A stretch of DNA of 35,515 nucleotides, taken from Dehalococcoidia bacterium (GTDB lineage Bacteria > Chloroflexota > Dehalococcoidia > Lucifugimonadales > Lucifugimonadaceae). This document shows positions 6,251 to 32,658 of this stretch, piece by piece. The stretch covers positions 1 through 35,515 of the forward strand of contig JAPKCH010000016.1 of assembly GCA_026421185.1 (NCBI GenBank). Reading direction: 5' to 3'. A model generated the notes under the pieces. It saw nothing but the letters and a program-made list of their open reading frames with translations. It was not told where the DNA came from and did no database searches. The translations under genes were made by a program, and so were the position numbers. Numbering within the stretch: the stretch's first letter is position 1; every line of letters starts with the position of its first letter.

Positions 6251-8143
6251 CTAAGTAGCCATTCCGTCATCTGCCTGTGTTGCCTGTACGATAAGCTCGT
6301 CAGGAATGTCGTCGAACGATGCGTAGTTCATAGAATATAAGCGTGAGTAAAGACCACCGAGTTCCATCAATACGTCGTGATTGCCTTGCTCGATGATTTC
6401 GCCATCCTGTAGAACGATGATTCTGTCGGCTCCACGGATGGTCGCTAGACGGTGAGCAATCACCATTCCGGTCCGGCCTTCCATCAAGCGAGCCAGCGCC
6501 TGCTGAATCAACATCTCCGTGTAAGAGTCGATGCTTGCTGTGGCTTCATCGAGCACAAGAATCTTCGCATCAGCCACGATAGCTCGTGCGAACGAAAGTA
6601 ACTGTCGTTGTCCCAGTGAAAGGTTTCCGCCACGCTGTTCCAGCGGAGTTTCGTAGCCATCATGTAACTTCATTATGAATTCGTGTGCACCAACTGCTTG
6701 GGCAGCGGCAACAACATCTTCTCGAGTCGCATCCTCTTTGTTGTAGATGATGTTTTCAAAGATCGTTCCTGAGAAGAGGAACGGCTCCTGAAGAACCATG
6801 GATACGTGTCTTCCGAGTGAATCCTGTGTCACGTCTCGTACATCGTGCCCTCCGACCTTTACTGAGCCTTCCCAGATATCGTAGAAACGGTGCACAAGCG
6901 CCGTGGTAGATGTTTTGCCGGATCCTGTTGGCCCAACCAGTGCGACGGTTTCGCCTGGCTTTACTTCGAAATTGATGTTCTTCAAAATCGGCTGATTCGG
7001 CATGTAACCAAAAGTTACATTTTCGAACGAAATAGAGCCATCAATTTCTTCAGGGTCTAGTGCGTCAGGCTTGTCCTGTATGTCAACTGGAACATCGATC
7101 ACTTCAAAGATTCGTTCGCCTGAAGCCATAGCTCGCTGAAGAACGTTGTAGTGCATTGTAAGTGCTCGAATAGGGTCGAAGAATCGTTGCACGAAAAGTA
7201 CGAAAGCGACCATAACACCGACTTCGATGGTTCCTCCGAGTACAAAAAATCCTCCGACGATTACGATGATTGCCATCGCTGCACCTGTAAGGGTGTCGAC
7301 GATTGGTAGCATCATCACACCGAATTTTGAAGCCCTGTTAGCGGCGTTCAAGTTATCGGTGGCACGAATGTCGAAGAGGTCGTAGTTCACGTATTCGCGT
7401 GAAAGTCCCTGAACGGCTCGGATGCCGTTGATGTTTTCGGCTAGTGATCCGCTGACGATAGATGACGTAACTCGGGCACGCAGGAACGATTTTCGAGCGT
7501 ACGGCAGCCAGATTATTCGGATGATGAATAGTATAGGTAGAACGGCGAGGGTCATTAGACCAAGACGCCAGTCCAACCAGATCATCGCTCCGATAATTCC
7601 AATAAGCAGAACAAAGTCACCGATTGCGAATACTGCTGTTTGGAGGAACTCCTGAAGTGCCGCAACGTCACCCTGTAGGCGTGACATCAGTTTTCCGATT
7701 TCGGTCTTGTCCATGAATGACAATGAAACGCGCTGAAGATGTGCGTACATCGCTCGGCGCATGTCGACCAAAATGCGTTCAGCAACCCTGCCAACAATGA
7801 GTTCTTGAAGATAGTTGGCGACGAAGTTGAAGCCTATAGCGACCAAGAAAATGATCACCATTGTTCCTAGTTTTGCTTTGTCTTCTACACCATCTTTAAG
7901 GGCGTCGTCATAAACATTTCTTACGATAAGTGGGATGGCAATCGAAGAAATAGTGAATACCAAGACTGCGGCAATGGCGACCCAAAGCAGCTTCTTGTAG
8001 GCAGAAATGTAACTAATGAAGCGACCAACAACTTGGCCATTGAACGCTTCACCAAAAACTTCTTCTTCAAGGGTTGGTCCGAGTTTAATCGAAGCCTTTG
8101 GCGGGATTTCGTGACTGCGACCATGAGTTCGTCTATTTGTCAT
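6251..8143 (-). CDS. ABC exporter half-transporter, catalytic partner (heterodimeric pair)
   Basis: A 630-residue type-IV ABC exporter: an N-terminal six-helix membrane domain (about residues 50-330) fused to an ATPase domain. Walker A is GPTGSGKT (404-411), the signature is LSLGQ (508-512) instead of LSGGQ, Walker B is ILVLDEAT with the catalytic Glu533, and the H-loop is His564. Its start codon overlaps the stop of the upstream partner gene by one base (TAATG on the minus strand), so the two are translationally coupled and should form a 1:1 heterodimer. The substrate is unknown; drugs and lipids are typical for LmrCD/BmrCD/TM287-288-type pairs. The variant signature helps form the degenerate ATP site with the partner's Walker B. 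Confidence 0.93.
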   Translation of the reverse strand: MTNRRTHGRSHEIPPKASIKLGPTLEEEVFGEAFNGQVVGRFISYISAYKKLLWVAIAAVLVFTISSIAIPLIVRNVYDDALKDGVEDKAKLGTMVIIFLVAIGFNFVANYLQELIVGRVAERILVDMRRAMYAHLQRVSLSFMDKTEIGKLMSRLQGDVAALQEFLQTAVFAIGDFVLLIGIIGAMIWLDWRLGLMTLAVLPILFIIRIIWLPYARKSFLRARVTSSIVSGSLAENINGIRAVQGLSREYVNYDLFDIRATDNLNAANRASKFGVMMLPIVDTLTGAAMAIIVIVGGFFVLGGTIEVGVMVAFVLFVQRFFDPIRALTMHYNVLQRAMASGERIFEVIDVPVDIQDKPDALDPEEIDGSISFENVTFGYMPNQPILKNINFEVKPGETVALVGPTGSGKTSTTALVHRFYDIWEGSVKVGGHDVRDVTQDSLGRHVSMVLQEPFLFSGTIFENIIYNKEDATREDVVAAAQAVGAHEFIMKLHDGYETPLEQRGGNLSLGQRQLLSFARAIVADAKILVLDEATASIDSYTEMLIQQALARLMEGRTGMVIAHRLATIRGADRIIVLQDGEIIEQGNHDVLMELGGLYSRLYSMNYASFDDIPDELIVQATQADDGMAT

Positions 8144-9987
8144 TACGAATCGCTCCCTTCGTTTTGACTATTGCGACTCTGTTCGCTTGGTCGAATTTGA
8201 AGTTCATAGAGATCGTTATAGTGTCCGCCCAGTGCGAGTAGCTCTTCGTGCGTACCGCGTTCGACGATCTTTCCTGCTTCTATGAACAGAATTTCGTCGG
8301 CGTGCATTAATGAACTTAACCGGTGTGAGATGATGATTGTCGCGCGGTCTTTTGTAAGGTTAGTCAGCGCCGCACGAATCCGTTGTTCAGTAGCAGCATC
8401 GATAGCAGCGGTGGAGTCGTCGAATACGATCAGTTGTGGTTTGAGCAAGATTGACCGAGCGATCGACAGTCGCTGGCGCTGGCCACCTGATAACGAAACA
8501 CCTCGTTCACCAACCATAGTGTTGTAACCACCGGGAAGACGCTCGATGTAGTCACCGAGCTGAGCGTACTTAGAGGCTTGCTCGACACGGTCGTCTGGTG
8601 CCCACGGGTCACCGTACGCTATGTTGTGCTCAACGGAGGCTGTGAAGAGGAATGTGTCCTGCTCAACAACCCCAACTGCTTTACGTAGTGAATCGAGCGT
8701 TACGTCACGTATGTCCTGACCATCGATCGTGATGTGACCTTCGATTGGATCGTAGAAACGAGGAACCAAGTGGGCAATGGTTGATTTGCCACTGCCTGGA
8801 GGTCCCACCATTCCAATGGTGTGACCCGGTTCAGCTTTGAATGACACACCATTCAGTGCGTGCTCGTCTTCGTAACTGAAACTGACGTTGTGAAACTCCA
8901 AAGTTCCGGAGGTGATTTCTAGCGGCTTCGCATCAGGTTTATCTTGAATATTTGGATCGATATCAAGTACAGCGAAGAGTCGCCCGCCGGTGGCTGATCC
9001 TCGTGCGTAGCCGTTGATCATCATTCCGATTTGTCTAACAGGCTGGAGCAGGATACTCATGAATGCGAGGAACTGGGTTAGTTCCCCTGGAGACAATTCG
9101 CCATCGATAACCTGTAGTCCGCCGACCCAAAGAACGGCAGCCATGGAAAGCATAAAAGCTACACCCATTAGAGATATATTCTTTGCTCGAATTCCGACCT
9201 GCACGTTGGCGAGTGACAATGTTTTGTTCGATGCTTCATCGAACTTTTTCATTTCGTGATCTTGCGATGCGAATGCTCGAACAACTCGGATACCACCGAG
9301 GTTCTCATCCATCACCTTAGTCAGGCCGGATAGTCGCTCTTGGAGCGCGTACCAGTTTGTTCGTAGTTTTAGGCGGGCAGCTGTCGCTCGCCAAGCTACG
9401 AACGGTACAAAACTGAGGCTGATGAGTCCGAGAACAAGATCTTCGCTCAGCATCAGATACATACCTGATCCGATGAGAACTACTAGGAATACGGTTCTGA
9501 GAAGAGCGGTCTGAACGAACATTCTGACGCCTTCAACGTCGACGATGCCGCGTGTGATCAGATCTCCAGTGTGAATCCCGGCGTGGTAGCTAAATGAGAG
9601 GCGTTGCAGTTTTTCGTAATAGAGCATTCTTAGCTCGTACCCGATGTTTTGCCCGATTGATTCACCCATGTAGTTTTGAATCATGGCTGAAAGTCCACGT
9701 CCAACTGAGGCAATAAATAGGAACACCGCAATAATGATGAGTGCTGTTTTCGCGGGATTATTTCCCTCTCCAAATCGATCGGTAGTAGCGTCGATACTCG
9801 AAGCCACCATTTCGTTCGCTATCTTAAGATTTCCTCCGTCAAGGCCAGACGCAGCATCAACCGCACTACCTATAAGAATAGGCAGGGCAAGTTGGAATAC
9901 AGACGCCATGAAAATCGCAATCATTCCGAAGATGAGACGCCATCGGTATTTAAGTGACATACGTGATATACGCATGAAAACACCCAT
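8143..9987 (-). CDS. ABC exporter half-transporter, degenerate-site partner
   Basis: A 614-residue ABC half-transporter with a membrane domain (about residues 15-320) and an ATPase domain. Walker A is GPPGSGKS (395-402), the signature is a canonical LSGGQ (499-503), Walker B is LIVFDDST with Asp524 where the catalytic Glu normally sits, and the H-loop is His555. The Glu-to-Asp change is the hallmark of the non-hydrolysing site in asymmetric heterodimeric exporters. It pairs with the LSLGQ signature of the second subunit, leaving one competent and one degenerate site. This is the promoter-proximal gene. The start is ATG 9987, with another in-frame ATG at 9975. No regulator is adjacent. Confidence 0.93.
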   Translation of the reverse strand: MGVFMRISRMSLKYRWRLIFGMIAIFMASVFQLALPILIGSAVDAASGLDGGNLKIANEMVASSIDATTDRFGEGNNPAKTALIIIAVFLFIASVGRGLSAMIQNYMGESIGQNIGYELRMLYYEKLQRLSFSYHAGIHTGDLITRGIVDVEGVRMFVQTALLRTVFLVVLIGSGMYLMLSEDLVLGLISLSFVPFVAWRATAARLKLRTNWYALQERLSGLTKVMDENLGGIRVVRAFASQDHEMKKFDEASNKTLSLANVQVGIRAKNISLMGVAFMLSMAAVLWVGGLQVIDGELSPGELTQFLAFMSILLQPVRQIGMMINGYARGSATGGRLFAVLDIDPNIQDKPDAKPLEITSGTLEFHNVSFSYEDEHALNGVSFKAEPGHTIGMVGPPGSGKSTIAHLVPRFYDPIEGHITIDGQDIRDVTLDSLRKAVGVVEQDTFLFTASVEHNIAYGDPWAPDDRVEQASKYAQLGDYIERLPGGYNTMVGERGVSLSGGQRQRLSIARSILLKPQLIVFDDSTAAIDAATEQRIRAALTNLTKDRATIIISHRLSSLMHADEILFIEAGKIVERGTHEELLALGGHYNDLYELQIRPSEQSRNSQNEGSDS

Positions 9988-14044: not shown

Positions 14045-14149
14045 TGGTGAATAGTACCTAGTAGAAGGAGTTTCCGTTGTTATACTCGAAATTCAATAGC
14101 TGCAATCTTCGCGCAGTACCACCCACAATTGTTCTATATACGAAGAAAT

Positions 14150-14821
14150 ATGCCAGACATCGAATACGATAATTTTCTTAAGATAACTCTTTTCAAGCTT
14201 AGTGCTGAATTTCGACGTTTGGACGCCGATGAACGCGTGAAAGCCAAACAGGAGTTCGCTGATCTGGTGTCCGAGCAATCGGCCGACCAAGAGATCCGCA
14301 CCTACAGCACAGTTGGCACACGAGCAGATGCCGAATTGATGCTGGTGCAGGATTCACCATCTATCGATACGTTCCATGAGCTTTCCAAAGCTATCAACCA
14401 CTCGGTGCTTGGTGGCTACCTTGAACAGTCGTATTCGTACCTGTCTATCAGGCGGAAGAGCCGTTACAAGCACGGCGGCGGGGTACCGAGGCTCAAGGAA
14501 GATTATAAGTACATGGTTATATACCCGATGACCAAGTCCCGACCGTGGTACCAGAAGTCTATGAAGGAGCGACAGGAGATGATGAACGATCATTTCCGCG
14601 TCGGTAAAGATTATCCAATGGTGAAGATCAACACGTCTTACGCGTTCGGTCTGGATGACACGGAGTTTGTGCTTAGTTTTGAGATGGACAATCCGTCAGA
14701 TTTCACTTCTCTTGTTATGGATCTACGTGAGGTTCCAGCGGCTCAATTCACTATGACAGAGATTCCTATCTTCACAACGATCAAAATGCCAATTTCCGAA
14801 GCACTGGATGCAATGGCGTAG
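14150..14821 (+). CDS. hemQ: Chlorite-dismutase-fold heme protein, probable coproheme decarboxylase (HemQ)
   Basis: A 223-residue member of the chlorite dismutase superfamily. In bacteria using the coproporphyrin route, HemQ makes heme b by decarboxylating Fe-coproporphyrin III. YPMTK (Tyr125-Lys129) matches the HemQ motif holding the radical-forming Tyr and its Met and Lys neighbours. The proximal heme ligand is His148 in MMNDHFRVGKDY, and GLDDTEFV follows. The distal Arg of true chlorite dismutases appears replaced by Ile, so chlorite degradation is unlikely. I prefer ATG 14150, with GAAGAA just upstream, over the in-frame TTG at 14129. A perfect inverted-repeat terminator separates it from a convergent ferredoxin gene. 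No other heme-biosynthesis gene is in the window. Confidence 0.82.
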   Translation: MPDIEYDNFLKITLFKLSAEFRRLDADERVKAKQEFADLVSEQSADQEIRTYSTVGTRADAELMLVQDSPSIDTFHELSKAINHSVLGGYLEQSYSYLSIRRKSRYKHGGGVPRLKEDYKYMVIYPMTKSRPWYQKSMKERQEMMNDHFRVGKDYPMVKINTSYAFGLDDTEFVLSFEMDNPSDFTSLVMDLREVPAAQFTMTEIPIFTTIKMPISEALDAMA

Positions 14822-14947: not shown

Positions 14948-15010
14948 TGGTCATGTTAAATAAACAAAGCCCCGGTGATTCACCGGGGCTTTGTTTATTT
15001 AACATGACCA
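14948..15010. terminator. Perfect 31-bp inverted repeat, bidirectional intrinsic terminator
   Basis: Bases 14948-14978 and 14980-15010 are exact reverse complements around a single central T. The core is GCCCCGG/CCGGGGC, flanked outward by A/T-rich arms (AAATAAAC and GTTTATTT) that supply a U-tract in both directions. It lies between the converging hemQ-like gene (stop 14821) and the ferredoxin gene (stop 15017), so it can terminate both transcripts. The arm length is far above that needed for termination. Confidence 0.9.
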
Positions 15011-15016
15011 TACGAA

Positions 15017-15283
15017 CTAGGCGTTTGCGCCTGGCTCCGAAGAGTCGTAGTCGTAATCGTAATTCAGTTTGATGAATTCTTGCTGATCTGCAGGAGTCTG
15101 ATCTTCAGGGAAGATGGCGTTCACTGGGCAAACTGGCTCGCAGGCTGCGCAGTCGATACATTCATCTGGACTGATGAAAAGCTGGTTGTCACCAGGCTTT
15201 GAGTAAATACAGTCCACCGGGCATACGTCTACGCACGCACCGTCCATTACGTCGACACAATCCTTGGCGATGATGTAGGTCAT
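15017..15283 (-). CDS. fdxA: 7Fe ferredoxin, FdxA type ([3Fe-4S][4Fe-4S])
   Basis: An 88-residue soluble electron carrier. The first cluster motif is C-x7-C-x3-CPVDC (CVDVMDGACVDVCPVDCIY) and the second is C-x2-C-x2-C-x3-CP (CIDCAACEPVCPVNAIF). The long first spacing is typical of 7Fe ferredoxins such as mycobacterial FdxA, which this closely resembles from MTYIIAKDC onward. The acidic, Tyr-rich C-terminus (YDYDYDSSEPG) follows. I chose ATG 15283, which has AGGAG nine bases upstream, over the longer frame reaching 15367. The redox partner is unknown. The nearby IscA-like and HemQ-like genes suggest a shared iron/redox theme, but the genes are not in one operon with hemQ. Confidence 0.92.
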   Translation of the reverse strand: MTYIIAKDCVDVMDGACVDVCPVDCIYSKPGDNQLFISPDECIDCAACEPVCPVNAIFPEDQTPADQQEFIKLNYDYDYDSSEPGANA

Positions 15284-15380
15284 CCGATGAGGCTCCTGAG
15301 ATGTTGCGACCAGTTCCTGTTTGGTCGACTTTGTGGCAAATCCACGGCAGATTATACGTTTCCGCAATCCATCGTAAATA

Positions 15381-15416
15381 GGCTGGCACGACTGTCTCTA
15401 TCAGAAAATGCCAGCC
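15381..15416 (-). terminator. Hairpin after the IscA-like gene
   Basis: GGCTGGCA (15381-15388) pairs perfectly with TGCCAGCC (15409-15416) across a 20-base loop that contains a further short CTG/CAG pairing. It lies 30 bases downstream of the minus-strand IscA-like stop and before the ferredoxin start. Only a weak T-rich stretch follows, so termination could be partial. Confidence 0.4.
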
Positions 15417-15445
15417 AAATTAATTACTTGATCACAACTAAGAGT

Positions 15446-15874
15446 TTAGTGTCCGCCGCAGGCGCAACCGCCGCCACCGCCGTCGCCACAGCCACCGCCA
15501 CCGCCACCGCTACCACAGCCGCCACCGCCACCGTTGCTACCACATCCACCACCACCACATCCGCAGCCAGATGAGAAGTTAGGGTTTGATATTACGAAGC
15601 CCGATCGTTCAAAACCTTCGACATAGTCGATACTTGAACCTTCGAGCATCGGGGCGCTTTCGGAATCGACAAGTGCCTTAACGGTTCCCTCTACGATTGT
15701 GTCGGATTCGGAAGGTTTTTCTTCCAGCCCGAATACATATTCGATGCCACCGTGGTCATCAGTTGCAACAGCGATTCGAAGGTACTGACCTTCTGCGTCC
15801 TGCTCTTTTAATACTTCGAGCAACTTAGTTGTTGCTGCCTCAGTGAACTCTAGAACGGTCGTCGAATTGACCAT
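15446..15874 (-). CDS. IscA/HesB-like iron-sulfur protein with Gly/Cys-rich tail
   Basis: A 142-residue protein. Residues 1 to about 105 are an A-type Fe-S carrier domain (FTEAATTKLLEVLKEQ at the N-terminus, YVFGLEEKPSESD in the middle, then GFVISNPNFSSGCGCG). A-type carriers hold Fe-S clusters through three cysteines. The C-terminal CGC pair is present, but the first ligand, normally GGCSG, is gone (VATDDHGGIEY). The last 40 residues are almost only Gly and Cys with a few Ser, Asn and Asp, contain seven Cys including the CGC pair, and end in His. Cluster ligation may therefore use the tail. GGAG with a seven-base spacer supports ATG 15874. The gene stands alone between the ferredoxin and a divergent regulator. 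Confidence 0.78.
   Translation of the reverse strand: MVNSTTVLEFTEAATTKLLEVLKEQDAEGQYLRIAVATDDHGGIEYVFGLEEKPSESDTIVEGTVKALVDSESAPMLEGSSIDYVEGFERSGFVISNPNFSSGCGCGGGGCGSNGGGGGCGSGGGGGGCGDGGGGGCACGGH
15449..15560. repeat. GCC/ACC trinucleotide-rich low-complexity tract
   Basis: The plus strand is built of imperfect repeats of GCCACCGCC and similar units. They encode the Gly/Cys tail of the IscA-like protein on the minus strand. Such tracts can change length by slippage in threes without breaking the frame. Confidence 0.8.
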
Positions 15875-16193
15875 TTGATACTCCAGATTGCCTTACGTAA
15901 GGTATTTTCGATTCCTGCTAACTACTTTACGCGAATTTCAAGTCAAAAGTACAGACTTAAAATATAAGGATGACGCATTGGTGATTTCATGTAAATGAGT
16001 CACTAATACAGTCTCGGTAAACGATTTTCGTCGGTATAGTTCAGTCTCATGATGGTAACCCGTGATAGGGCGCTTTGAGAATTACGCACGAATCAGGATA
16101 GATTTTCGTTCAATTACGGAAGCGCTCTACTTGAACGAAGATATCTTAATCGTAGATTCCATACCCTTGTTAGGAAAATTGGATAAAGCTCGA
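15875..16193. promoter_or_regulatory. Divergent control region with perfect palindrome CCTTACGTAAGG
   Basis: This 319-base gap separates the IscA-like gene (minus) from the Lrp/AsnC gene (plus). A perfect 12-base palindrome, CCTTACGTAAGG, occupies 15891-15902, immediately upstream of the IscA-like Shine-Dalgarno site, where a repressor could block transcription or initiation. A TATAGT at about 16034 could be a plus-strand -10 element. The Lrp-type reading frame is open back to a GTG at 16062, but that extension does not resemble the family. Confidence 0.4.
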
Positions 16194-31584: not shown

Positions 31585-32126
31585 GTGTTTGTTCCTTCAA
31601 ACTGGTGACTCCCCAAGTTCATGGGGGAACCACGGGTGGGTGGGTCTTTATCAGCAATAAATTACATCGATCAAACCTGCCTGGAAGTTCCCTGCAGTTC
31701 CAACATCACTAAAACGGAGCTAACGCTCGCTGCTGATTTACCCAGTGTTTTTTGTGATGTCATCGACGTGAATCGGCTCCTTGGAATTTTCAAGAAGGTC
31801 GACAACGCGATGCTCGATACTTAAAACATTGTTCTCACTTGAGAGGTTGTCAAGCGCTGTTTTGCTAAAATAATCACTTTTATCGGGTGAAGTCTGAGAG
31901 TTAGACTACCCAAAAACAGATTGTACATATTGGCGCTCAATGTTGATATCTTCAAGAATGATGTCGACTGATGTGGTGAGTTTTGCCCCTGCTGAATGAG
32001 TCAGTTTGTCCCTTTGCTCTTTTCGCTGAGCCCACTTTCTCGGAGGGCGAAAATGTCTCGATCTAAGTCAAGACTACTGTTTTGACCTGGGGACTAATTG
32101 AGCGGAGTATGCCAATATGCGAAATA
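31585..32126. other. 540-base gap upstream of topA, no confirmed gene
   Basis: The stretch between topA and the serine tRNAs contains the topA leader hairpin and should carry its promoter. A plus-strand 67-codon frame (31621-31824) and a minus-strand frame without a start codon (31906-32067, KWAQRKEQRDKLTHSAG...) are open but unrecognised. The second has a protein-like composition and could be a remnant. Confidence 0.4.
31604..31632 (-). promoter_or_regulatory. Hairpin in the topA leader
   Basis: TCCCC (31610-31614) pairs with GGGGA (31624-31628), extended by TGGT/ACCA arms past a three-base bulge. It lies 20 bases upstream of the topA start, in the expected 5' leader. No role is shown. Confidence 0.3.
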
Positions 32127-32216
32127 TGGCGGAGAGGACAGGATTCGAACCTGCGGTGAATTTGCACCCACACACGCTTTCCAAGCGTGCCCGTTAAACC
32201 GCTCTGGCACCTCTCC
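32127..32216 (-). tRNA. tRNA-Ser (anticodon GGA)
   Basis: The minus strand folds as a class II tRNA of 90 bases: the acceptor GGAGAGG pairs with CCTCTCC, the discriminator is G, and CCA is encoded at the 3' end (plus-strand 32127-32129). The anticodon stem CACGC/GCGTG encloses the loop TTGGAAA, giving anticodon GGA (plus-strand 32180-32182). A long variable arm and GGTTCGAATCC T-arm are present. It reads UCC and UCU serine codons. It lies downstream of tRNA-Ser(CGA) on the same strand. Confidence 0.95.
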
Positions 32217-32230
32217 GCGGTTGCATCGTC

Positions 32231-32247
32231 GACTGGTGAAACCAGTC
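32231..32247. other. Hairpin between the two serine tRNAs
   Basis: GACTGGT (32231-32237) pairs with ACCAGTC (32241-32247) around GAA in the 79-base spacer. It may guide processing of a joint tRNA precursor. There is no U-tract for termination. Confidence 0.4.
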
Positions 32248-32295
32248 TTGTGCTCATCATTGTTGGAAGGCGGCGGCCCAACTTTGATGTGTATA

Positions 32296-32385
32296 TGGCG
32301 GAGAGAGCGGGATTCGAACCCGCGATATGCGGATGCATATACCGGTTTTCGAGACCGGCGCCTTCAGCCACTCAGCCATCTCTCC
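32296..32385 (-). tRNA. tRNA-Ser (anticodon CGA)
   Basis: A second 90-base class II tRNA on the minus strand: the acceptor GGAGAGA pairs with TCTCTCC, the discriminator is G, and CCA is encoded (plus-strand 32296-32298). The anticodon loop CTCGAAA sits between CCGGT and ACCGG, giving CGA, which reads UCG. The variable arm is long, and the T-arm contains GGTTCGAATCC. TATAGT about 15 bases upstream may be the -10 element of a promoter shared with tRNA-Ser(GGA). Confidence 0.95.
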
Positions 32386-32658
32386 GAACTCATCAACTAT
32401 AACAATCGTTTCGACTGTTTCGGATACTCATTTGGAAGGAATCTGGAGGGTTTTTCTTTTAGTATTCAACAACTGTGGTACTGAGAATTATTGACGGATG
32501 AGATTTGAAATCAATACGATTACACGATTGTTGATTTATATCAGTTCCTATTCATTTAGCTCTACCGGGGCCGGTGCTGCTCTACTTGGTCGCTTACCTT
32601 CGGAGTCGAATGCACTAGATTGGGACTTATCAAGATGCTATTAACAGGTGTTTGTTAG

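Follow-up and report, generated by a model that had tools for sequence, protein, structure and literature searches.

The window, i.e., the whole 35,515-nucleotide stretch of Dehalococcoidia DNA analyzed here, carries at 15446..15874 on the minus strand a real gene with an ATG start, encoding a 142-residue A-type protein of the ErpA lineage that lacks the first ligand cysteine (Cys1) and ends in a Gly/Cys tail. A ribosome-binding-like motif (CTGGAG) lies 5' of the start and is conserved across the genus. Also upstream are a 12-bp palindrome (CCTTACGTAAGG, ~15890-15905), identical in three members of the genus and partly preserved in others, and, farther away, a GCGCGTAAAGTAGTTA-like element conserved in most of the genus; both are possible regulatory sites. 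Antisense to the tail runs a 95-residue Ala/Thr-rich ORF (15287-15574, plus strand), which seems to be a side effect of the Gly/Cys codons and not a gene.

Residues 1-99 (15578..15874, minus strand) form the A-type domain, with NPN at its end. An earlier note, made from the DNA letters, had called the protein IscA-like, with a DDHGG loop in place of the first Cys ligand, and this was borne out. The protein matched PF01521 at 47.3 bits (cut-off 26.3) and TIGR00049, the general A-type subfamily, at 81.2 bits (cut-off 58.8), and alignment with canonical paralogs revealed a degenerate first-ligand loop, D39-D40-H41-G42-G43 (15746..15760, minus strand), replacing the GGCSG of their GGGCSG motif, so that Cys1 has become His41 (codon 15752-15754). 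All IscA/SufA/ErpA equivalog cut-offs lay above its scores, the best of which was for ErpA (NF010147, 77.1 bits versus a curated cut-off of 117). The HesB-like selenoprotein model NF038090 gave 31 bits against a cut-off of 85, TIGR01911 was not among the matches listed, and profile searches of the protein found neither an NFU domain (PF01106) nor a metallothionein family match.

In an AlphaFold2 model built on 35 homologues, the domain was mostly confident to about residue 100, while pLDDT was below 50 at residues 103-136, and the tail is predicted to be disordered. Structure comparison of the modeled domain with DsrR, IscA, SufA, AQ_1857 and HI1723 gave Z scores of 9.6-11.9, the top match being DsrR (2k4z) at 11.9, tied with IscA; the next structural matches were unrelated folds at Z ~2.5. 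In sequence, AQ_1857 is the nearer of the two to the protein's family, at 95 bits versus 51 bits for DsrR.

The tail itself (residues 100-142; 15449..15577, minus strand), delimited by sequence and pLDDT, comprises 43 residues, among them 27 Gly and 7 Cys, and ends in CACGGH. The earlier description of some 40 added residues of Gly and Cys closing on a His is thus right as to length, composition and end, but the first CxC is native: C104-x-C106 (15557..15565, minus strand), directly after NPN, aligns with ligands 2 and 3 of canonical proteins, and only ~30 residues are extra relative to the 13-residue end of the canonical paralogs. Beyond this pair, the tail holds five more Cys and the C-terminal His. 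In terms of the Cys-Xn-Cys-X-Cys signature that characterizes A-type proteins (PMC7144353; PMC8593673), the first Cys is absent and the C-terminal CxC is present.

Downstream of the gene lies an FdxA-like ferredoxin gene (15017..15367, minus strand, likely start at 15283) and, convergent with the latter, a gene for a HemQ/chlorite-dismutase-family heme enzyme (14129-14821, plus strand); both neighbors had been named in the earlier note and were confirmed by profile matches. Between these two genes, a long-armed, near-perfect inverted repeat (GGTCATGTTAAATAAACAAAGCCCCGG...CCGGGGCTTTGTTTATTTAACATGACC, ~14949-15009) is probably a bidirectional terminator. Elsewhere in the window, two neighboring genes with a one-base overlap (6251-9987) resemble the halves of a heterodimeric ABC exporter. 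The ORFs at 32063-32484 (ERDSNPRY, RIRTCGEF) were rejected as proteins because they are read antisense across a pair of tRNA-Ser genes (32127-32216 and 32296-32385, both minus strand). The SufB/SufD-type genes of this genome are on another contig.

Loop, tail and neighborhood in the order

Orthologs were found in 93 of 100 genomes of the order (SAR202, Dehalococcoidia), at E ~2e-20 or better; five of the seven genomes lacking one are >90% complete, and the protein is therefore not indispensable. Both features, the absence of Cys1 and the Gly/Cys tail, occur in orthologs from over 30 families of the order. Among named relatives, that of Candidatus Lucifugimonas marina is the closest; the rest belong to SAR202 or Dehalococcoidia/Chloroflexi.

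Among 76 order-level orthologs, the Cys1 column never held Cys, the commonest residues being His (36), Asn (12) and Gln (11). All 76 carry the tail, which spans 16-91 residues, terminates in His in 58 and contains 4-12 Cys, except in one copy truncated at a contig end. GG or GGH is the most common tail end, and the shortest tail consists of a CxC, three to five residues and a second CxC. A random, unconserved tail length, named in the earlier note as an outcome that would speak against its proposal, was encountered only in part: close relatives differ freely in length (20-43 residues in a single genus), but all keep the Cys minimum and one or more CxC pairs. Tail codons in the genus are diverse (Cys as TGC 67 times and TGT 36 times, Gly as all four codons), and this diversity, with conservation across the order, rules out a tail arising by chance or as a DNA-repeat artefact. 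Nor is the tail a metal-binding end shared with other proteins, since C[GA]CGGH followed by a stop was seen once per genome, in 18 of 40 genomes, and only at this gene's locus.

Canonical paralogs from the same order (n = 10) keep GGGC[SA]G, have a 13-residue end of the CGCGTSFSV type and lack the tail. In the window genome, the canonical A-type carrier is a separate gene, followed by a YgfZ/CAF17-like gene (TIGR03317, 61.7 bits versus a cut-off of 49). Two order-level relatives, L076 and L172, combine a seven-Cys tail with a Gly-rich insertion in the ligand loop (SGSGGCGGGGGG, SSGCGGG) that puts a Cys near the old Cys1 position.

In the window's taxonomic family, the FdxA-like ferredoxin gene lies 3' of the tailed gene on the same strand at 37 of 41 loci, with HemQ, BioY, AspS and trigger factor often retained in position close by. 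This ferredoxin/HemQ neighborhood is not preserved elsewhere in the order, where only two loci (L064 and L067) have both genes within 2.5 kb. The proximity of ferredoxin and heme enzyme remarked on earlier is therefore a family-level feature, better kept for the ferredoxin than for the heme enzyme, and we rejected a heme link via HemQ, whose adjacency is not conserved outside the family. An Lrp/AsnC-like cluster, mostly divergent, was found near the tailed gene at 20 of 49 loci.

Cys1 loss and tail thiols across Chloroflexota

We compared 261 distinct complete A-type proteins drawn from class and phylum searches and from retrieved loci, the sampling covering Chloroflexota plus viral contigs, with L280 counted as keeping Cys1. 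Cys1 is absent from 119 distinct Chloroflexota proteins, and 118 of these have at least four tail Cys; the remaining one, L306 (genome G396), is fused to an NFU domain, an NfuA-like architecture in Chloroflexota. The co-occurrence of Cys1 loss and tail gain proposed in the earlier note is thus present, with the canonical paralogs showing neither, and it partly supports the further suggestion, made from sequence, that the tail may supply replacement ligands.

Tailed homologues do not all keep Cys1, although some outside the order do. Exactly three tail Cys were present in 11 of 13 Cys1-keeping relatives with a Gly-rich tail, the other two being the loop-insertion proteins, with seven each. A tailed protein thus has either Cys1 and three tail Cys, or no Cys1 and four or more, and therefore four thiols either way. 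Such Cys1-keeping, Gly-rich-tailed intermediates occur both in the window's own class and in other classes, and from them we infer that the tail was gained first and Cys1 lost second. The common Chloroflexota form keeps GGGCSG and has a C-x-C-G-x-S-F end with a short extension, whose one to three additional Cys are often accompanied by a His; one Cys1-keeping near relative, L197, scored 119.3 bits against the ErpA cut-off of 117. All 16 viral relatives found keep Cys1 and none has a Gly/Cys tail (the L384 sequence stops at a contig end), and phage carriage of the tailed protein was rejected on this basis.

A raw Fisher test of Cys1 loss against tail Cys gave p ~2e-34, a value that overstates independence and was not taken as proof because the sequences share kinship. 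A domain tree was also consulted, with 184 rows and, once the loop columns were removed, ~90 columns, in which many forks are unresolved. On this tree, Cys1 is lost in the SAR202 order, in the clade f46/f98/f92 (support 100/95), in the pair L313/L314, in L228 and in L306. The best tree has seven changes at Cys1, of which well-supported branches force at least two, and at least two independent Cys1 losses in Chloroflexota are thus well supported. The tree-based independent-pair test had only two supported pairs and was not significant, and the Cys1/tail association therefore carries no phylogenetically corrected significance.

Candidate roles of the tailed protein

The reading that we favor, with about as much conviction as doubt, is that the window protein is a specialized, vertically inherited offshoot of the Chloroflexota ErpA-type carrier whose ligand set moved out of the folded domain. 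Tentatively, we extend it to the phylum: a cluster or metal site may have moved from the folded A-type domain to a disordered tail more than once in Chloroflexota, with at least four thiols always kept. The A-type domain would keep its dimerization and target-docking role, like the degenerate A-type domain of NfuA, while the flexible tail, in its minimal form CxCGG(x)CxCGG(H), would hold an Fe-S cluster or its iron and hand either to clients. A possible client, and the leading candidate in the window's family, is the ferredoxin of the adjacent gene.

A tail of freely variable length is more in keeping with a flexible tether than with a folded site, and the native Fe-S CxC pair is both retained and duplicated in the tail. 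Against relocation are tails with up to 12 Cys, more than one cluster needs; a ferredoxin neighbor that is not kept across the rest of the order; the 7 of 100 order genomes without the protein; an NFU absence with no clear relation to Cys1 loss outside the order; and the few tree columns, together with the nonsignificant corrected pair test.

NfuA is on present comparison the closest analogue: its A-type domain lacks a ligand Cys and recognizes apo-protein targets, and the cluster sits on a second module (PMC8593673). In the window protein, too, the A-type domain has lost a ligand Cys and is joined to a second module with Cys, but this module is a Gly/Cys tail predicted to be disordered instead of an NFU domain, and the A-type CxC pair is kept. 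With ErpA and other A-type carriers (PF01521, TIGR00049; PDB 1nwb, 2apn, 1x0g, 1r94) it shares the fold, the NPN motif and the CxC ligand pair, and it differs from them in the missing first ligand Cys, the added tail and its position below the equivalog cut-offs. Degenerate A-type domains are already known from NfuA and DsrR, and a short Cys-bearing extension is already common in Chloroflexota ErpA-like proteins; what appears new is the combination of Cys1 loss with a Gly/Cys tail, and the four-thiol pattern. No description of tailed or Cys1-less A-type proteins from SAR202/Chloroflexi was found in the open-licence literature.

The main rival to a carrier with a relocated site is a metal buffer or store, in line with the different metal-binding or storage protein considered in the earlier note. 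Here the A-type domain would serve only as a dimeric platform and the tail would act like a small metallothionein, its Cys and terminal His binding several ions of Zn(II), Cu(I) or Fe(II). Bacterial metallothioneins do have a CxC-rich segment with a terminal His that resembles the window tail, which differs in being attached to an A-type domain and in having almost only Gly between its Cys. The high Cys counts and the His at the end of most tails agree with such a buffer, and so does the free variation in length, as additive binding capacity would predict. A store would not, however, account for a native Fe-S ligand pair (CxC) at its usual site at the tail start or for the minimum of four thiols; moreover, the Cys1-keeping relatives are ErpA-like, and the family-level neighbor is a ferredoxin and not a metal transporter or sensor. 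We consider a buffer unlikely on these grounds, although sequence cannot decide between it and the relocated-site carrier.

More doubtful is an adaptor that binds no cluster in its domain, as in DsrR of Allochromatium vinosum (PDB 2k4z), and whose tail is a redox-active or flexible tether for protein contacts or regulation. DsrR has an IscA-like fold without the standard ligand set and is, jointly with IscA, the best fold match of the modeled domain, but the protein's sequence is nearer to AQ_1857, and DsrR is not known to have a Gly/Cys tail. For a mere tether, the order-wide retention of the CxC pair and of at least four Cys would be unnecessary.

The order's lack of NFU raises the idea that the tailed protein is a stand-in for a missing NfuA, which we regard as improbable. 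The profile search found no PF01106 in the window genome, and NFU exceeded the cut-off in 1 of 100 order genomes, as opposed to 144 of the 245 sampled from the class and 111 of the 251 sampled from the phylum; L306, moreover, is a case of a Cys1-less A-type domain fused to NFU. Yet NFU is also lacking in 62 of 106 Cys1-keeping lineages, not significantly different from 6 of 7 Cys1-less ones outside the order, and genome G087 (99% complete) has neither NFU nor the tailed ortholog. Replacement as a general rule was therefore rejected: NFU absence is real across the order, and its association with Cys1 loss is unsupported outside it. A precursor of a post-translationally modified peptide with a microcin B17-like Gly/Cys core, suggested by composition only, can practically be dismissed, as the window genome has no match to YcaO (PF02624) and the gene is conserved across the order without conserved modification neighbors.

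A-type carriers are usually defined by their three-Cys motif, and a large natural family that lacks one of the three, and in which additional tail thiols are always seen, puts this definition directly to the test. If clusters are carried, the folded-domain Cys would be dispensable and a flexible CxC tail would suffice; if other metals are carried, a major group of marine bacteria would have turned the A-type fold into a metal buffer. Were the relocated-site reading true, this would be a natural case of ligand relocation from a rigid domain to an intrinsically disordered tail. The tailed Cys1-keeping relatives L189, L191, L192, L194 and L236 offer natural intermediates.

Further A-type loop variants

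Two other loop forms were observed. L090 (genome G004) and L091 (genome G084) represent a third A-type kind, with a GPHGC(V/I)HGW loop and short His/Cys C-termini (GGCGNH and HQHGGGCHH). Five short A-type proteins (L223, L224, L238, L276 and L279) have a shifted loop, G(Q/A)CGCG(A/K)xHYG, and a C-terminus with only one CxC pair (CGCGGH, for example).
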